From: a virus
Direction: 5' to 3' (one strand)
Virus record (IMG/VR): IMGVR_UViG_3300010935_000266
Coordinates: 1 to 20,816 of that record
Length of the DNA stretch: 20,816 nt
Shown: positions 2,805-20,816 of the stretch, piece after piece
Numbering within the stretch: position 1 is the stretch's first letter
Layout of the letters: each line of letters starts with the position of its first letter
Notes under the pieces: model-generated
Seen by the model: only the letters and a program-made list of their open reading frames with translations
The model's database searches: none
What the model was told of the DNA's origin: nothing
Program-made: the position numbers and the translations under genes

Positions 2805-2913
2805 ATCGCCACAGAGCGCCTTTTACTATGATTCGGCACCTTGTGCTGCATTTGGCGAAGACGTTAAGCTTGTAACGCGTTGCAACGCCGTTGCAGGGGG
2901 CGCGCATGGCTGA
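2788..2913 (+). CDS. Small hypothetical ORF bridging portal and minor head genes
   Basis: A 41-codon ORF (starts MSKRLKSPQSAFYYDS) begins 17 bases before the portal stop and ends 8 bases into the next gene. An AAAAGGA sequence (2772-2778) lies about 9 bases before its ATG. It exactly fills the otherwise untranslated 100 bases between two genes that are elsewhere packed tightly, and its overlap with the following ATG could couple translation of the minor head protein. I do not recognise the product. It could be a chance ORF: it is short and the composition proves nothing. Confidence 0.4.
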   Translation: MSKRLKSPQSAFYYDSAPCAAFGEDVKLVTRCNAVAGGAHG

Positions 2914-4156
2914 TGTAAAGTACGGCTCGCTGCCTTTTGATGCGCAAATCGCTTTTTTCAAGAATAAGCTGGCTTTGCCCACCCGCACTTGGACTGACAT
3001 TTGGCAGGCCAATCATGACCATGCTTTTGTCGTGGCGGGAGCCACCAAGCAAGCGATGCTAGAAGATTTCCAGTCGGCTATCCAAAAAGCAATAAGCCAA
3101 GGCACTACGCTTACTGAGTTTCGAAAAGACTTTGACCAAATCGTCACTGCGCATGGTTGGGACTACAAAGGCACCCGCAGCTGGCGCACCCGCGTGATTT
3201 ATCATACCAACCTGCGCGGCTCCTACAATGCAGGCCGATTTGAGCAATTGCAGCGGTTTCCCTATTGGCAATACCACCATTCCATCGCCTCGCAAAATGC
3301 AAGGCCACAGCACTTAGCCTGGGATAAACTTGTGCTACCCGCCAATCATGCGTTCTGGCTCACCCACTACCCGCAAAATGGCTGGGGCTGTAATTGTTCG
3401 GTCACAGGTTTAAGCGAAGCGCGATTGAAGGCAAAAGGTTTGAGCGTGTCTGAAGCGCCAGAAATCAAGATGCGCAAAGTTGAAGTGGGCAAAAATGGAT
3501 TGAACCCACGCACCGTAGATGTGCCTGAAGGTATCAGTCCGGGTTTTGCCTATGCGCCTGGTCGCAGTGCTTGGATGCATAACCATGTGCCAACGCCGCT
3601 GGGCAAGCCGCCACACGGGTTTGATAAAATGATTCCAGCCACAGCCGCGCGGGATTTGCTTCCTGATCCACTTGCATTTGATAAAGGCAAGCTCATGCCG
3701 CTGATGAATGCTGGGCAAGAAGAACATTATGCGCGTGCGTTTCTGCAGCCGTTTGGTGCAGATATTGGCAAACCAGCCGTATTCACTGATATCACTGGTG
3801 AAGCTATTGTGCTTTCTGATGCACTGTTCAAAAGCTCAAATGGCGCGTGGAAAATGGGGAAACGCTCACGAAGCAGTGAAATTCCCATGCTTGCCGAAAC
3901 ACTAAAGCATCCCGATGAACTGTGGGCTGGCATGTATTGGCATGGCGAAAAAGGTATTGTTAAAACCAGCCGTGTTTATCTCTCGCGTTATGATGTGGAT
4001 GGTAAGCAGTATTTTTCCGTGGTGGTGATGGGTTATGATCATGGCTGGCATGGCATCACTGCGCACACATCGATGAGCGCAGATGAGTTTAACAGTAAAG
4101 TGGAAAGAAATAGGCAGGGTATTCGATTGTTTAAGCGCGGGTCAGTGCCTGAGTGA
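2906..4156 (+). CDS. Minor head protein, Mu F-like (gp30, phage head morphogenesis family)
   Basis: This is a capsid morphogenesis protein of the SPP1 gp7/Mu F family, which acts with the portal and scaffold during procapsid assembly. The chosen ATG at 2906 gives 416 residues beginning MADVKYGSLPF, as in relatives; a TTG at 2891 would add five residues and lacks a better ribosome site. The family core is visible: RVIYHTNLRGSYNAGRFEQ, then ARPQHLAWDKLVLPANHAFW, then WGCNCSV with cysteines 162 and 164 (the conserved GWGCxC element). The C-terminal 150 residues (after about residue 260) are a separate domain containing GMYWHGEKG and WHGITAHTSMSADEF. This resembles a phage-barnase-EndoU-ColicinE5/RelE-type nuclease extension seen on some such proteins, but I cannot confirm that. 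The gene is followed by about 110 untranslated bases. Confidence 0.88.
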   Translation: MADVKYGSLPFDAQIAFFKNKLALPTRTWTDIWQANHDHAFVVAGATKQAMLEDFQSAIQKAISQGTTLTEFRKDFDQIVTAHGWDYKGTRSWRTRVIYHTNLRGSYNAGRFEQLQRFPYWQYHHSIASQNARPQHLAWDKLVLPANHAFWLTHYPQNGWGCNCSVTGLSEARLKAKGLSVSEAPEIKMRKVEVGKNGLNPRTVDVPEGISPGFAYAPGRSAWMHNHVPTPLGKPPHGFDKMIPATAARDLLPDPLAFDKGKLMPLMNAGQEEHYARAFLQPFGADIGKPAVFTDITGEAIVLSDALFKSSNGAWKMGKRSRSSEIPMLAETLKHPDELWAGMYWHGEKGIVKTSRVYLSRYDVDGKQYFSVVVMGYDHGWHGITAHTSMSADEFNSKVERNRQGIRLFKRGSVPE

Positions 4157-4867: not shown

Positions 4868-5971
4868 ATGAAACGCAACCAACCACACAAAGCACAACCC
4901 AACCAACAGCAAATCGATGTTGGTGTTGTTGTATGTTCGCTCGATGTGCTGGCATCAGATGCTGGGGTTACACAGCGCATCCACCTAATCCAAGCAGATG
5001 CCGATGGGATGGTCAACGGTGTTGACGGGCGGAAATGGAGGTTCAACGCTAATAACATCATTGCCAACGCTCAGGCCTATCCAGCTGAATATCCCGGTGA
5101 TTACCACCATGCATCTCTGTATGCTGACAAGACTGGTTCCGCCGCACCTGCATGCGGCTGGATTACACCAAGCACGCTCGAGGCCTCCAATGATGGCATA
5201 TGGGCAACTGTCGAATGGACGGCCAACGCTGCTAAGGCTATTCGCAACAAAGAGTTTCGATATATCTCACCTGTTTTTACTTATAACAAGGCGACTCGCG
5301 AAACGCTGTCGTTTAAGGGGTTTGCTTTAACCCACTACCCAAACCTCGGTGATTTAACGCCGGTGGCAAACGCACAAAATCTGGAGGAATCCCAAATGGA
5401 CGAACTACTCGAACGGTTCAAGTATATGTTGAACCTTCCCGAGTTGGCGACACCAGAAGAAATCTTAGCTGAAATGGAAAAGGCAATCACACGCCTCAAA
5501 GCCATGAGCGCCGAATCTTCTGATGCTGCAAATACTCAGGATCAAAACCTCATCGCTTTGATTGATGAACTTGAAACGCAAATGACAACCTTGGCCGCAA
5601 ATGCGCAACAAGACCTTACCGGTTATGTGCCACGCAACGAGTTTGACACAGTGCGTGATCAATTATTCACCATTACCAGTGAAAACGAAACCAAACGTGT
5701 TGAAGTGGCAGTCAATGCCGCGCTGGATAAAGGTGTGATTGCGCCAGCATCAAAAGCGTGGGCTGCTAACTACTGCCGCAAAGACCCCGAAGGTTTCGCT
5801 GATTTCGCAGCCAACGCCGCAAAAGCTGTGCCCTTGGGCGAAGAAGGTCACACGCAAACAACCGCTGACGCTTTGAATGCTGAAGAAGTGGCGATGTGTA
5901 CCCAGCTTGGTATCAACCAAGACGATTTCAAAAAAACAAAAGCTATGGAGGTGAATCATGGCACTAACTAA
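4868..5971 (+). CDS. Prohead protease with C-terminal scaffold region (Mu I/Z-like, gp32)
   Basis: A 367-residue protein resembling the Mu I protease, which matures the prohead and removes the scaffold. The N-terminal part has QRIHLIQADADGMVNGVDGR, the AYPAEYPGDYHHASLYADKTG block, WITPSTLE, WTANAAKAIRNKEFRYISPVF and LTHYPNLGDLTPVANAQ, the order seen in this family. The C-terminal 190 residues (about 177-367) are helical, charged and scaffold-like. An in-frame stop at 4838-4840 and no alternative codon make ATG 4868 the first usable start, yet it has no clear ribosome site. GCAGC (4848-4852) and GCTGC (4863-4867) can form a small hairpin directly before it. The end overlaps the next gene by 14 bases. 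Confidence 0.88.
   Translation: MKRNQPHKAQPNQQQIDVGVVVCSLDVLASDAGVTQRIHLIQADADGMVNGVDGRKWRFNANNIIANAQAYPAEYPGDYHHASLYADKTGSAAPACGWITPSTLEASNDGIWATVEWTANAAKAIRNKEFRYISPVFTYNKATRETLSFKGFALTHYPNLGDLTPVANAQNLEESQMDELLERFKYMLNLPELATPEEILAEMEKAITRLKAMSAESSDAANTQDQNLIALIDELETQMTTLAANAQQDLTGYVPRNEFDTVRDQLFTITSENETKRVEVAVNAALDKGVIAPASKAWAANYCRKDPEGFADFAANAAKAVPLGEEGHTQTTADALNAEEVAMCTQLGINQDDFKKTKAMEVNHGTN
5396..5971 (+). CDS. Probable scaffold protein from internal start of the protease gene (Mu Z-like)
   Basis: An ATG at 5396, exactly in frame with the protease ORF (codon 177), is preceded by GGAGGA 8 bases upstream, one of the best ribosome sites in the window and of no use to the protease itself. 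It would give a 191-residue product (MDELLERFKYMLNLPEL...) rich in Glu, Lys and predicted helix, with DLTGYVPRNEFDTVRDQL in the middle. In Mu the scaffold Z is made in just this way from the 3' part of gene I. The start and site are seen directly; expression as a separate protein is inferred. Confidence 0.7.
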   Translation: MDELLERFKYMLNLPELATPEEILAEMEKAITRLKAMSAESSDAANTQDQNLIALIDELETQMTTLAANAQQDLTGYVPRNEFDTVRDQLFTITSENETKRVEVAVNAALDKGVIAPASKAWAANYCRKDPEGFADFAANAAKAVPLGEEGHTQTTADALNAEEVAMCTQLGINQDDFKKTKAMEVNHGTN

Positions 5972-6356
5972 AGACGCAAATACGCCAGAGCGCTCAGGCG
6001 AACTGTTTGCTCGGCCAGTGGCTGCAGCAACGCAGCTATTCGCTGGCTCAATGGGCGCAATCAACGCAGCTGGTGATGTTGTACCCGCATCAAATACAGC
6101 CGGCTTAAAAGTGGCTGGGCGCGTTGCGTCCAGTGTGGACAACACAGCAGGCACCGCAGGTGATCTTAACGCCACCCTAAAACGCGGTGTTTTCCGCTTT
6201 GCCAATTCTGGCACAAGCCCACTCACCGTTGCTGACATCTTGGCAAACGCCTTGGTGGAAGATGACGGGACCGTAGCAAAAGTAACAACCAACTCAATCG
6301 TTGCCGGCAAGATTATCGATATCGATGCCAGCGGTGTTTGGGTTGAGATTAAATAA
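5958..6356 (+). CDS. Small head decoration/capsid-cement-type protein
   Basis: A 132-residue protein rich in Ala, Gly, Val and Thr, starting MALTKDANTPERSGELF, with GGAGGT just before the ATG and a 14-base overlap with the protease gene. It has the beta-rich make-up of a phage cement or decoration protein (AGSMGAINAAGDVVPAS, VWVEIK at the end) and lies between the protease/scaffold and the major capsid gene, as decoration proteins do. The identification is by position and composition, not by a specific motif. Confidence 0.7.
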   Translation: MALTKDANTPERSGELFARPVAAATQLFAGSMGAINAAGDVVPASNTAGLKVAGRVASSVDNTAGTAGDLNATLKRGVFRFANSGTSPLTVADILANALVEDDGTVAKVTTNSIVAGKIIDIDASGVWVEIK

Positions 6357-6360
6357 GGGA

Positions 6361-7434
6361 ATGGTGAATGAAATGAAAAAACTAAAAACATTAGGCATCT
6401 ACTCGCTTGCCTTCGTGGCTTGCGCGTTGATGTTCGTGGCAGGCACTGATCCTGCATATGCTTTGGCTCCGATGTCGTTTGACATGCCTAGTGCAGCGAC
6501 CGGGATGGGAATCGCTGCGGCGGGCATCATGATCAATGCTGCAACACTCAAAGCTGCGCAAACATCGTTTAATACATTGTTCCAAGGTGCATTTGATCAG
6601 GTGAAATCATTCTACATGATTATTGCTATGAAGGTGCCGAGCAATACTTCTGCCAATGATTATAAGTGGCTGGGTCAATTGCCTGGTATGCGCGAATGGT
6701 TGGGTGACAAAGTACTGCACAATCTTACGGCACATGGTTACTACTTGCCCAATAAAGATTATGAGCTGACCGTTTCTGTTGACCGCAATGATTTCGAAGA
6801 TGATCAGTTGGGTATTTATAATCCACTGATGTCAAATTTGGGTGATGCTTCAGCGCGCCATCCCGATGAAATCACATGGCCAGCATTGATTGCAGGTTTC
6901 ACTACGGGCAAAGGTTTTGATGGCGTACCATTCTTCAATACCGCTCACCCTGTGAATGGTATTGATGCCCAAGATGGCACCTATGCCAACCGCCCTGCGG
7001 TGTTGGGTGCGGCAGAGCCTTGGTTCTTGGTGGATGATTCGCGTCCAATCCAGCCAATCATTTTCCAAGAGCGCAAATCGTATCACTTTGTCAGCCAAAC
7101 TGACCCACAAAACCCAGCTGTATTTATGCAGAAGAAATTCCACTACGGCGTTGAAGCCCGTGTGGCTGTGGGTTACGGCTTGCCGCAGTTGGCATACGGC
7201 TCTCGTGAAGCTTTGACCCCTGCAGCTTACAAAGCAGCGCGATTGGCAATGTCTGGCTTGAAACGCATTGATGGTACGCCATTGGGTGTGAAAGGTCTGA
7301 CGCTGATTGTTGGTGAAGGCAACTTTGAAGCTGCCAACATCTTGTTAACCAACGACCGCGATGCAGCTGGCGCCACCAACACGTGGAAAGGCACTGCCAA
7401 GCTTGAATTGGTTGATTACCTCACTGGCCAGTAA
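6361..7434 (+). CDS. Major capsid protein, Mu gpT-like (gp34), with unusual hydrophobic N-terminus
   Basis: This is the major head subunit of the Mu T family. From MINAATLKAAQTSFNTLFQG (ATG 6529) onward it matches the gpT layout: a helical start, LPGMREWLGDKVLHNLTAHGY, YELTVSVDRNDFEDDQLGIY, and a C-terminal GLTLIVGEGNFEAANILLTN. Possible starts are ATG 6361 (357 residues), ATG 6373 and the internal ATG 6529. The upstream starts add about 52-56 residues that look like a signal peptide: MKKLKTLG, a hydrophobic run (IYSLAFVACALMFVAG), then AYA-LA. That is odd for a cytoplasmic capsid protein. The AAGGGA before 6361 is too close for that start and fits 6373 better; 6529 has no obvious site. The gene is followed by a terminator. 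Confidence 0.88.
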   Translation: MVNEMKKLKTLGIYSLAFVACALMFVAGTDPAYALAPMSFDMPSAATGMGIAAAGIMINAATLKAAQTSFNTLFQGAFDQVKSFYMIIAMKVPSNTSANDYKWLGQLPGMREWLGDKVLHNLTAHGYYLPNKDYELTVSVDRNDFEDDQLGIYNPLMSNLGDASARHPDEITWPALIAGFTTGKGFDGVPFFNTAHPVNGIDAQDGTYANRPAVLGAAEPWFLVDDSRPIQPIIFQERKSYHFVSQTDPQNPAVFMQKKFHYGVEARVAVGYGLPQLAYGSREALTPAAYKAARLAMSGLKRIDGTPLGVKGLTLIVGEGNFEAANILLTNDRDAAGATNTWKGTAKLELVDYLTGQ

Positions 7435-9986: not shown

Positions 9987-10310
9987 ATGGCATATGTATT
10001 ACAAAAAGAACGCAAAATTTGGTGGCCAGTAATCATCCTTGAGCCTGTGGATGATGGCAAAGTTGAAGAGAGGAAAATCAAGCTGCTCTTCACTATTGAA
10101 GCGCGAAAAAAATGGACTGAAACCGATCTGGTGTCCGACATTCTGAAACGTGTAGTCGCAGGCTGGGAATTCGTGACAGATGCCAATGGTGATGCAGTAC
10201 CCTTTACCAAGAAGAACTTCGAAGAACTTTGTGAAGATGAACGCGCCGAAATGGCAATTTGGAAAACGTATGACGAACAAGTCCTCGCTGGGGCACCTGC
10301 AAAAAACTAA
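9987..10310 (+). CDS. Tail assembly chaperone, G-type, with -1 frameshift site at its end
   Basis: A 107-residue protein located exactly between the tube and tape-measure genes, the place of tail assembly chaperones. AAGGGG precedes its ATG. It is charged and partly helical (IEARKKWTETDLVSDILKRV). The last codons are GCA AAA AAC TAA, containing the heptamer A AAA AAC in the correct phase for -1 slippage one codon before the stop. The fusion would continue at 10307 to the stop at 10697-10699, giving about 237 residues. The chaperone role comes from position and the frameshift arrangement, since the sequence alone has no motif I recognise. Confidence 0.78.
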   Translation: MAYVLQKERKIWWPVIILEPVDDGKVEERKIKLLFTIEARKKWTETDLVSDILKRVVAGWEFVTDANGDAVPFTKKNFEELCEDERAEMAIWKTYDEQVLAGAPAKN

Positions 10311-17610: not shown

Positions 17611-18705
17611 ATGGCTGAATTATCGCTGCAATCATTAGAACGCTTATCGAAATTTGACACGAGAATCGATGTATACATCGATGGAGATGGCAAGAAATCA
17701 TACATGAAATGGATTCCGCCATTTCGCGCCGCTCGCGCGCTCACAGTGCTGGGTGCAACAGCCACGGCATCAAATACGGTGGGCGACTGGTTTCATCCAG
17801 CAGACGCCCCATCGGGCGCAGTCTCTGCTGTTGACTATGCGACTGTAGATATGGGTGGATATTGGGTTGATATGTATCTATGCAGCTCGCCCGACGCATC
17901 TGCTAGCAGGCTGGGCACGGCCGCCAACGGCACTACGGTCCATGCTTATGTGTCGCAGCCTCTCGTTTCTCCGCGTGTTTCGCAAAATATAGCCCACTTC
18001 AAAACTTACTTGGCCACCCGCTTTGCGACTGGCGATTTTGAGCATGGCAGCGGCGGCCTGGCTGGAACAGCATGGGCTGGCAAAGGCGGATTAATGACAG
18101 ACCAACACTGGTTTGAGCTGTGGGTATGGAGTCGCATCAATGGGTTGTCGTTGCGAGGAAACACATTTGGATACTCAGCGGCAGATCATGTGCCAGCTTG
18201 GCATGGTGATGGCTCTGAGGTTGGCATGCTAGATGTGGCGCAGTTGGCCGATTATGGCGCAAGCCTCACAGGCTCAGGCCCCAAGCAGTGGCGCACGATT
18301 GTCGATGACTTTTGCGGTAATCGGTGGGAGTTTACTGACGGGCTCAGGCTCTTTAATGGCGGCATATATTCATCAGGAAAAACCATCGACCCTCCAGCCA
18401 GCTATGCTGATGCCGCGTATCTCAATACTGTGCGAGCGGTTTCTGGCGTGACGGCAGGTCAGATGGTTGCGAGCTATCGCGATGACGTCGATATTGTCCG
18501 GCACGGCATCCCAGCGTCTACTACCGCAGCAGGCGCGGGGCCGATGGATGGTCAAGGATTTTGGTTTAGTGCATCCGGAGAAATTGTTGCGCTTCGCGGT
18601 GGCGCCTGCTACAACGGTGCCCTGTGCCCTGGTGCGCTCTACCTCAGCGCCGGGCCGGCTATCGCGAACTGGAACATCGGCGCGCGCGCGGTACTTGTAC
18701 CTTGA
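17611..18705 (+). CDS. DGR variable protein with C-type-lectin-like C-terminus (putative receptor-binding tail protein)
   Basis: This 364-residue protein is the target of the diversity-generating retroelement. AAGGAG lies before the ATG. The C-terminal region has the formylglycine-generating-enzyme-like C-type lectin pattern: GNRWEF (236-241), FWFSASGE, VALRGG and NWNIGARAV near the end. The variable repeat encodes residues from about 324 to 362. Residues read from TR Asn codons (AAC) are Ala332, Tyr334, Tyr344, Ser346, Ala347 and Ile351, while Asn335, 353 and 355 are unchanged. Cys333 and Cys339 come from adenine-free codons, so TR cannot vary them. The N-terminal half (MAELSLQSLERLSKFDTRID...) probably attaches it to the tail. 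The ligand is unknown. Confidence 0.93.
   Translation: MAELSLQSLERLSKFDTRIDVYIDGDGKKSYMKWIPPFRAARALTVLGATATASNTVGDWFHPADAPSGAVSAVDYATVDMGGYWVDMYLCSSPDASASRLGTAANGTTVHAYVSQPLVSPRVSQNIAHFKTYLATRFATGDFEHGSGGLAGTAWAGKGGLMTDQHWFELWVWSRINGLSLRGNTFGYSAADHVPAWHGDGSEVGMLDVAQLADYGASLTGSGPKQWRTIVDDFCGNRWEFTDGLRLFNGGIYSSGKTIDPPASYADAAYLNTVRAVSGVTAGQMVASYRDDVDIVRHGIPASTTAAGAGPMDGQGFWFSASGEIVALRGGACYNGALCPGALYLSAGPAIANWNIGARAVLVP
18587..18697 (+). repeat. Variable repeat (VR) of the DGR
   Basis: This 111-base stretch aligns without gaps to TR at 19097-19207 (510 bases downstream). It differs at 12 positions: 18604, 18605, 18610, 18623, 18636, 18640, 18647, 18649, 18650, 18662, 18691 and 18695. Eleven of these are adenine in TR; only 18623 is not (TR G, VR T). 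The GC-rich run at 18679-18690 followed by the end of the repeat is the expected initiation-of-mutagenic-homology end. Confidence 0.96.
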
Positions 18706-19082
18706 GTGCTGATGCTCGTATAGCTCGCGGGAGCGAGCCTCTTGTGCTGGAGCGCAAGGCTTATGAAATGATTGAGTATGGGTACGTTTGTTTGCGGCAA
18801 TTCCCAAACAGTGAAAAGCACACGCTAGCGGCAGAGATTAAATCCTGCATGTTTACTATTCTGCGTTTCGTTATTCGCGCTAGAAGGCAGTATTATAAAA
18901 AGACAACGTTACAGGATCTCGACATAGAGAACCACGCACTCATGACTCTGGTGCGATTAGCGAAAGACTTGTCTTTTCTTGCGTTCAAGCGGTACGAAGT
19001 TTGGGCGGGCATGATTGTAGAGATTGGCAAGATGGTTGGTGGGTGGATCAAGCATCAGTCTGCCAATCATTCTGGCCGGTAG
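18702..19082 (+). CDS. avd: DGR accessory variability determinant (Avd-like four-helix protein)
   Basis: A small basic helical protein that binds the DGR reverse transcriptase and template RNA and is needed for mutagenic retrohoming. The C-terminal part is diagnostic: MTLVRLAKDLSFLAFKRYEVWAGMIVEIGKMVGGW, with the IGxMxGGW ending of the family; LERKAYEMIEYGYVCLRQFPNSEKHTLAAEI is the typical start. Start choice is uncertain. TTG 18702 (126 residues) overlaps the VP stop (TTGA), while GTG 18744 (112 residues) has GGGAG upstream and begins right at the conserved region. The frame stays open upstream through VR to a GTG at 18624, but that start would put VR inside the gene and is unlikely. BPP-1 Avd is 128 residues. 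Placement between VR and TR matches BPP-1. Confidence 0.85.
   Translation: MSADARIARGSEPLVLERKAYEMIEYGYVCLRQFPNSEKHTLAAEIKSCMFTILRFVIRARRQYYKKTTLQDLDIENHALMTLVRLAKDLSFLAFKRYEVWAGMIVEIGKMVGGWIKHQSANHSGR
18723..18738 (+). promoter_or_regulatory. Hairpin/cruciform downstream of VR (DGR target recognition element)
   Basis: GCTCGC (18723-18728) and GCGAGC (18733-18738) form a perfect 6-bp GC-rich stem around the tetraloop GGGA. It lies 25 bases after the VR end. In the BPP-1 DGR a stem with a GRNA tetraloop just downstream of VR is required for efficient target recognition, and GGGA fits GRNA. No equivalent hairpin follows TR. It also sits inside the start region of avd. Confidence 0.7.
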
Positions 19083-19363
19083 GGTATATGGTAAATTTGC
19101 GCTTCGCGGTGGCAACTGCAACAACGGTGCCCGGTGCCCTGGTGCACTCAACCTCAACAACGGGCCGGCTAACGCGAACTGGAACATCGGCGCGCGCGCG
19201 ATACATGGGGCTGCCAGAAGGCACAGGCTTAAGGACCGGTGCCCAGCGCGACCCAAGTACGGCCATGTCCCCCCTGTCTTAAAAAGGCAAAAATCGGGAC
19301 TAATATCCGGTGGCAGGCGGCTAGTAGCTATAGCGAAGCCCGTTGCCGTCGGATCCCCTTCAG
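19083..19363 (+). ncRNA. Probable DGR template RNA (TR plus spacer to the RT gene)
   Basis: The 281 bases between avd and the reverse transcriptase hold no credible gene. They contain TR and a 156-base spacer (19208-19363). In BPP-1 the RNA covering the TR, the adjoining avd end and the spacer to the RT is the template and primes cDNA synthesis from the spacer. The same layout is present here. RNA ends are not visible in the sequence. Confidence 0.6.
19097..19207 (+). repeat. Template repeat (TR) of the DGR
   Basis: The template copied by the reverse transcriptase with adenine-specific errors and used to overwrite VR. In the VP frame it reads LRGGNCNNGARCPGALNLNN, then GPANANWNIGARA, with nine AAC codons. 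AAC is the typical DGR codon, since changing its adenines gives 15 amino acids and no stop. The alignment with VR ends at 19207; beyond that the sequences diverge completely. Confidence 0.96.
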
Positions 19364-20416
19364 ATGAAGCGTCATGGTAACTTGTTTGAGCGCATTGCTG
19401 CTTTCGATAATCTTGAGTTGGCGTATCGCAAGGCCTCGCGCGGTAGAAGCATGGACCGAGCTGTACTTAAGTTTCGTGATCGCCTTGAGGAAAATCTAAT
19501 TCAGATGCAAAATGAATTGATATGGGGTATGTACACGCCCGGAAAGTACTTTGTATTTAGCGTTTATGAGCCAAAAGAGCGACTCATCTATGCCGCGCCG
19601 TTTCGTGACCGTGTAATGCATCATGCTGTAATGAATATTCTTGAGCCCCTATGGGACGGGTTATTTATAAGTGATTCTTTCGCCTGCCGAAAAGGCAAGG
19701 GCGTGCATGCTGGGCTCGACCGCGTAACATCAATGCTGCAGTCAGCTCACGATATGTGGGGAGGCCGCGCCTTTTGCTTACAGGCAGATATTTCAAAGTA
19801 CTTTCCATCAATTAATCATCACGTTCTGATGTCGATTATTAAACGAAAAATAAAATGTAAGCGTACTCTGGATTTGTTGGATCAGATTGTGTTCATTGAG
19901 GGCGATAGGGATGATGTTGACAGTCATAATCTGCCTATAGGCAATCTGATTAGCCAATGGTGCGCCAATATATATCTTAACGAGCTGGATATGTTCGTAA
20001 AACATGAGCTAAAGGTGACGCATTATGCCCGCTATATGGATGACTTTATTTTACTGCACCACAACAAGGCCGAGCTACATCGAATGCTGGAATTAGTGGA
20101 TGCCTTCCTAGCGAATAAACTATGCCTTTCACTCAACAAGAAGACATCAATATTCCCTGTCGAGCAAGGTATCGATTTGATGGGGTTCCGTCTCTGGCGT
20201 GACCACAGGCTGTTGCGTAAATCATCGGCGCGTCGAATGGTATCTCGCTTGCGCTATATGCGGGCTAGGTATGCTGAAGGAAAGATTCCAATGTCAAAGG
20301 TTCGGCAGCGAGTTGGTAGTTGGCTTGCCCATTGCAGTCATTGCAATGGATGGAGGGTTCGCAGGAGGATTATGGCTCAGGCTGTTTTTAGCGGGGACAG
20401 AGACCCCACTTCGTAG
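19364..20416 (+). CDS. DGR reverse transcriptase
   Basis: A 350-residue error-prone reverse transcriptase. ATG 19364 gives MKRHGNLFERIAAFDNLELA, the standard DGR RT beginning; a TTG 7 codons upstream is less likely. Motif A is ADISKYF with Asp142; the motif IGNLISQ (192-198) is the DGR-specific (I/V/L)GxxxSQ that replaces the QGxxxSP of group II intron enzymes; the active site is YMDD (224-227). A thumb region with GSWLAHCSHCNGWRVRR follows, and no maturase or endonuclease domain is present. It makes TR cDNA with errors at adenines. It comes right after TR, as in BPP-1. No defect is visible, so the system looks intact. Confidence 0.96.
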   Translation: MKRHGNLFERIAAFDNLELAYRKASRGRSMDRAVLKFRDRLEENLIQMQNELIWGMYTPGKYFVFSVYEPKERLIYAAPFRDRVMHHAVMNILEPLWDGLFISDSFACRKGKGVHAGLDRVTSMLQSAHDMWGGRAFCLQADISKYFPSINHHVLMSIIKRKIKCKRTLDLLDQIVFIEGDRDDVDSHNLPIGNLISQWCANIYLNELDMFVKHELKVTHYARYMDDFILLHHNKAELHRMLELVDAFLANKLCLSLNKKTSIFPVEQGIDLMGFRLWRDHRLLRKSSARRMVSRLRYMRARYAEGKIPMSKVRQRVGSWLAHCSHCNGWRVRRRIMAQAVFSGDRDPTS

Positions 20417-20816
20417 TCGCCGCAAAAGATGTGGTCTGCCTATACTGCCTCTATGCTATACTGGCATTGCCTCGGCTATTTATGCTTTGCTTTTTTGTAA
20501 CTGAATTTCAATATACGCAATATGGTTAAAACTAACTTATATCGCTTTACCTGCGGAATTTATCGCGCGCGGCATCACATTTTTGGGCAGCCAAAAACGA
20601 ACCAAAAAACTGCCCCTTATATAGCTGCGTTTACCCTTCACTTACAAACATAAAAAGGGCGCGTGATACTGCGCTTTTCCTTTTTATGCCTGACGTTTCT
20701 GCGCAGCTATAGCAAGGGGAAAAACATCTGAAACTTCGGGTAACTTTGCGTACTTTGCGGTTCAGCACTACCTAAGTTGCGGATTTTCTCTTAGGTGAGT
20801 AATCGAGAGTTCGTTC
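20417..20816. other. Non-coding stretch with inverted repeats after the RT gene
   Basis: No ORF with a credible ribosome site or known motif is seen here. Inverted repeats are: TTTTTGG/CCAAAAA around GCAG (20580-20597), an overlapping alternative GGGCAG/CTGCCC (20585-20590, 20610-20615), the terminator-like repeat at 20649-20688, and ACCTAAG/CTTAGGT (20770-20776, 20790-20796). A near-tandem ACTTTGCG occurs twice at about 20742-20758. It may hold the end of the late operon or approach the phage's right end. Nothing in it identifies an attachment site or host gene. Confidence 0.5.
20649..20688 (+). terminator. Probable bidirectional terminator after the DGR
   Basis: CATAAAAAGG (20649-20658) is perfectly complementary to CCTTTTTATG (20679-20688), and inside it GCGC (20659-20662) pairs with GCGC (20671-20674) with a TTTT bulge. 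A T run lies in the right arm and an A run in the left, so it could end transcription from either side. Confidence 0.6.

Follow-up and report, generated by a model that had tools for sequence, protein, structure and literature searches.

A phage record from IMG/VR, analysed over its whole length of 20816 bases (the window), carries what is almost certainly a complete phage diversity-generating retroelement (DGR) of the BPP-1/TaqVP type. Anatomy, gene families and fold agree on a cassette of VP with its VR, Avd, TR and reverse transcriptase (RT), in which all open frames are intact (Table 1). VR lies inside a coding gene, at the C-terminus of VP, and TR lies outside genes, between Avd and RT. 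A complete and intact cassette in the BPP-1 order had been proposed in a sequence-only reading of this DNA, and direct comparison with NC_005357 bore out that order. The RT contains the motifs IGNLISQ and YMDD, in columns conserved across an alignment of eight RTs, and these correspond to the [ILV]GxxxSQ and YxDD that define DGR-clade RTs. Its start is most likely ATG 19364, as in relatives, and Avd would begin at GTG 18744 or, alternatively, at TTG 18702, which overlaps the VP stop. A search of the whole record for a second VR found none. On the 3' side of RT, a 10-bp perfect inverted repeat (CATAAAAAGG/CCTTTTTATG) occupies 20649-20688 and is possibly a terminator.

Table 1 Features of the DGR cassette, in window coordinates
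Feature	Position	Strand	Description
VP, variable protein, 364 aa	17611..18705	+	C-type-lectin (FGE-type) fold; last tail-module gene
VR at 3' end of VP	18587..18697	+	111-nt TR copy; differences at TR adenines
VR mutable core	18592-18678	+	
IMH, 3' homing boundary	18679..18697	+	GC-only tract 18679-18690 = TR, then GTACTTG
Target-site hairpin GCTCGC-GGGA-GCGAGC	18723..18738	+	GRNA loop, 6-bp stem; DNA fold
Avd, accessory variability determinant	18744..19082	+	PF22296 bAvd 2e-31; PHROG 3206 'Avd protein of DGR' 3.5e-37
TR	19097..19207	+	Nine AAC codons in VP frame; IMH* 19189-19207
RNA element, TR 3' end to RT	19201..19352	+	Rfam RF02921 RT-14
DGR reverse transcriptase, 350 aa	19364..20416	+	RVT_1 3e-19; PHROG 1423 2.5e-133

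VR and TR are two 111-nt copies with a spacing of 510 nt and 89% identity. They differ at 12 sites, 11 of them adenines in TR (hypergeometric P=3e-8), and VR has a base other than A at every one of them. Both copies share a 12-bp GC-only tract (18679-18690 in VR, 19189-19200 in TR), and two of the differing sites, 18691 and 18695, fall 3' of it. Beyond the tract, the VRs of the window and of the sister phages L011, L014, L015 and L016 read GTACTTGT, where their TRs differ, and L030 has the same VR/TR G/A polarity at the equivalent of 18691, the first of the two sites. Because these fixed bases differ in relatives too, 18691 and 18695 are differences between IMH and IMH* and not the result of mutagenesis. 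The IMH/IMH* asymmetry is present, as a shared GC-only tract followed by VR- and TR-specific bases that are kept in relatives. The earlier count of 11 of 12 differences at TR adenines holds over the repeat and slightly overstates the bias, which in the mutable core is 9 of 10, with VR departing from TR at 9 of 20 adenines as against 1 of the 67 remaining bases (P=2.9e-6). The proposal that these differences are evidence of mutagenic retrohoming is supported by the core bias and by adenine-linked VR changes in sister phages. Two direct repeats at this spacing could also be a plain duplication whose copies have diverged by drift and whose adenine bias is accidental. The probability of this is negligible, given the core P value, the same bias in L015, L016 and L030, and the DGR-type RT and Avd alongside, and plain duplication was rejected on the adenine-linked VR variation in relatives.

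The sole non-adenine difference in the core is at 18623, where the codon is CTG in VR and CGG in TR. Since the TRs of L030 and L011 have CAG at this codon, which varies across VPs and aligns by eye with the variable TaqVP residue V354 (PMC6328139), the difference may reflect a later A-to-G change in TR. The ancestral base is not certain, because L015 and L016 each read CTT in both copies. At 18636 (TR A19146), VR has G, as do the TRs of relatives, and A is found in the window TR alone; as an adenine mutation this site is ambiguous. At 19133, and perhaps 19146, the change is confined to TR, which suggests that no rewriting of VR has occurred since. The last core TR adenines (19177-19186) are unaltered in VR. 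Read in the VP frame, the TR core offers nine AAC codons and one ATC codon that are productively mutable, giving ~1.5e11 proteins and no stop codons, and six of the nine AAC codons are altered in VR.

The nearest VPs are those of L030, L011/L012 and L013-L017 (56-66% identity); among them, L030, L011/L012 and L014-L017 are 59-66% identical to the window VP and have a closely similar IMH. The VRs of L014 and L015, which come from one metagenome, disagree in 15 of 19 TR-adenine columns and in 1 of 63 others. Adenine-linked VR changes beside a TR that keeps its adenines are the pattern that the sequence-only reading had proposed to look for in related strains. Among the sister phages, VR is polymorphic at 19/19 TR-adenine columns versus 22/63 others (P=1e-7). 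Within L015, VR and TR disagree at 13 of 22 TR adenines and 0 of 65 other bases, and L030 has the adenine-linked pattern too. As judged from these comparisons, VRs in sister phages have been rewritten at TR adenines and mutagenic homing has taken place in the lineage. The earlier description of the element as apparently active stands in this sense of past homing, and the cassette of the window phage is presumably active at present. A real DGR that is now silent in this phage, with a VR that records old homing and a TR that has begun to drift, is unlikely. It would account for 19133 and possibly 19146, positions at which TR has departed and VR still matches the other close VRs examined, and it has a parallel in L011, whose 11 non-adenine VR/TR differences are those of a VR that looks stale. 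However, the window cassette retains its open frames, the catalytic YMDD and DGR motif, the hairpin and the RNA element, and non-adenine differences affect just one of the core sites.

Two nucleic acid elements that the sequence-only reading did not name, like the AAC codons of TR, also fit a DGR. BPP-1 requires a hairpin with a GRNA loop and a 7-10 bp stem, located 4-34 bp after VR (PMC3240598). The GGGA-loop hairpin in Table 1 lies 25 bp after VR, has a stem of 6 bp as against the reported 7-10 bp, and is the sole GRNA-loop hairpin with a stem of at least 6 in the window. Hairpins of this type were found downstream of VR in 51 of 77 DGR loci, compared with 1 of 223 control stretches. Between TR and RT, the RF02921 match is full-length and scores 34.5 bits, under the gathering score of 48.1. 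The RT-14 match recurs at the equivalent place in L011, L015, L016, L024 and L027, and in BalMu-1 (L025) it scores above gathering; the element is likely the structured part of the DGR RNA.

No Pfam domain was found in VP. A profile of the VP clade matched a single PDB sequence, TaqVP (5VF4, 1.8e-5), which is a DGR variable protein with a C-type-lectin fold whose variable residues are solvent-exposed (PMC6328139). An AlphaFold model of VP built from a 45-sequence alignment reached pLDDT 68 and pTM 0.78, compared with pLDDT 27 from an 8-sequence alignment, and its best match was TaqVP (E 1e-12), followed by Mtd variants, with PvdO and TvpA weaker. In this model VP has the C-type-lectin fold of the solved DGR variable proteins TaqVP and Mtd. 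As the model is of low local confidence at 335-340, the surface placing of the variable residues rests on homology; of the structure prediction suggested with the earlier reading, the fold was recovered from the model and the surface position was taken from TaqVP. We infer that the diversified VP is the receptor-binding tip. It is very unlikely that VP is instead an enzyme or a surface protein of another role (FGE/EgtB-like), even though the fold is common to FGE and EgtB-type enzymes and similar phage genes are annotated SUMF1/EgtB. TaqVP and Mtd match VP better than any enzyme does, VP is the last gene of the tail module, and its C-terminal part has a match to the tail protein PHROG 5302. 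An FGE-type enzyme was rejected as the main reading of VP on the better TaqVP/Mtd matches and the tail-module position. One such annotated gene, the 'SUMF1/EgtB/PvdO non-heme iron enzyme' of YPCBV-1, was presented in the literature as an auxiliary metabolic gene with a possible antioxidant role (PMC9769972). This gene (1753-2802 of L026, OP380511.1) holds the VR, and its product is most likely the DGR variable protein.

In the clade of the window VP, the usual RGGxW...A is replaced by RGGxC...C (Cys333 and Cys339), with both cysteines encoded by adenine-free TR codons. They flank the first variable loop and are shared with L030, L011/L012 and L014-L017; in the alignment the pair is present in six of six complete clade members and in none of 37 other VPs. 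The pair is one evolutionary event and the sole unusual feature of the clade. That a Cys333-Cys339 disulfide pins the first hypervariable loop, making a disulfide-braced C-type-lectin diversity scaffold, is a guess, conceivable but rather doubtful.

The window is probably a fragment, 20.8 kb being short for such a phage. It contains the Mu-type head genes Portal_Mu, Phage_Mu_F, Mu-like_Pro, Mu-like_gpT and Gp36 (portal, gpF, gpI protease, gpT capsid and gp36), together with a siphophage-type tail module with tail tube and tape measure; no tail sheath gene was found among the window's tail genes. This composition agrees with the earlier assignment of the DGR to a Mu-like siphophage tail module. 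The gpF-like Mu head protein (2891-4156) has a C-terminal PBECR2 nuclease-like domain (PF18810, 1.5e-23). No transposase was found in the 20.8-kb record, and its last 390 bases contain no clear right-end repeat set of a transposable phage. Signs of transposition are confined to relatives: Mu-transpos_C is present in L012, and the L011 and L015 prophages have a common right end, ...TTCGCCTGACA (near 10020-10230), followed by differing host DNA, that is, at differing insertion sites. Each of these two right ends is near a tRNA gene, and the tRNA genes differ.

BPP-1 (mtd-avd-TR-brt) shares the gene order of the window, where Avd is bAvd-like, and resembles it in having a C-type-lectin tail protein gene with VR at its 3' end, a GC-rich IMH and a GRNA hairpin (PMC3240598). 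The window VP differs in that neither an Mtd N-terminal nor a second domain was found in it, and the window hairpin has the shorter stem. BPP-1, a podovirus, has an integrase. The Thermus aquaticus prophage protein TaqVP is the closest solved VP by both sequence profile and fold, and its DGR has the same order, VP-avd-TR-rt (PMC6328139); the two VPs are 17% identical in the fold alignment, and TaqVP Trp349 and Ala355 correspond to Cys333 and Cys339 here. DGRs are already known in the Mu-like phages BalMu-1, YPCBV-1 (PMC9769972) and hankyphage (PMC12135933). In BalMu-1 (NC_030945) and YPCBV-1 (OP380511), VP-Avd-TR-RT follow tail genes, the VR/TR differences are adenine-linked and the RTs are ~42% identical to that of the window, whereas the neighbouring genes are annotated xkdT-like or baseplate, as opposed to the siphophage-type tail here. 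The same cassette is also present in vB-Vv-ZX4290.

Searches with the RT gave at least 582 RT-related loci in IMG/VR, matches in 164 phage records and, in a scan of genomes, distant relatives only. An exact pattern scan of IMG/VR detected no near-identical TR/VR copy, and the phage collection contained nothing close at the DNA level by megablast. Three sister phages differ from the window in that VP and Avd are separated by a gene for a Dam-type N6-adenine methyltransferase (L011 7336-8124, L015 7400-8308, L016 7526-8311), and in two other DGR loci such a gene lies directly 3' of RT (L085 ~5915-6865, L118 ~5911-6891). The window has no Dam-type gene, and no paper was found on a link between Dam and DGRs. 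In L030 (2985-3092), the closest relative, the RT frame runs into a CRISPR direct repeat (3019-3055, RF01322). The assembly appears to have jumped from the RT gene into a host CRISPR array by way of an identical spacer, and ~2985-3018 of L030 may accordingly be a protospacer.

In the mechanism we propose, TR would be transcribed together with the downstream spacer, and RT and Avd would produce a cDNA with random bases opposite template adenines. This cDNA would replace VR, entering at the GC-only IMH tract beside the GRNA hairpin, and would leave TR intact. Up to nine AAC-coded residues and one Ile would thereby be rewritten in the ligand-binding face of the C-type-lectin domain. If VP binds the receptor, its variation would let the phage alter what the tail binds and switch tropism.

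The window cassette is a standard DGR; hundreds of similar ones are known, and no principle is changed by it. What it contributes is a well-preserved example in a Mu-like genome whose tail genes are of siphophage type. The Cys pair and the Dam gene of the sister cassettes offer specialists in DGRs minor leads, and the uncultured sister phages, in which the TR adenines are kept while the VRs differ there, provide a clean natural test case.
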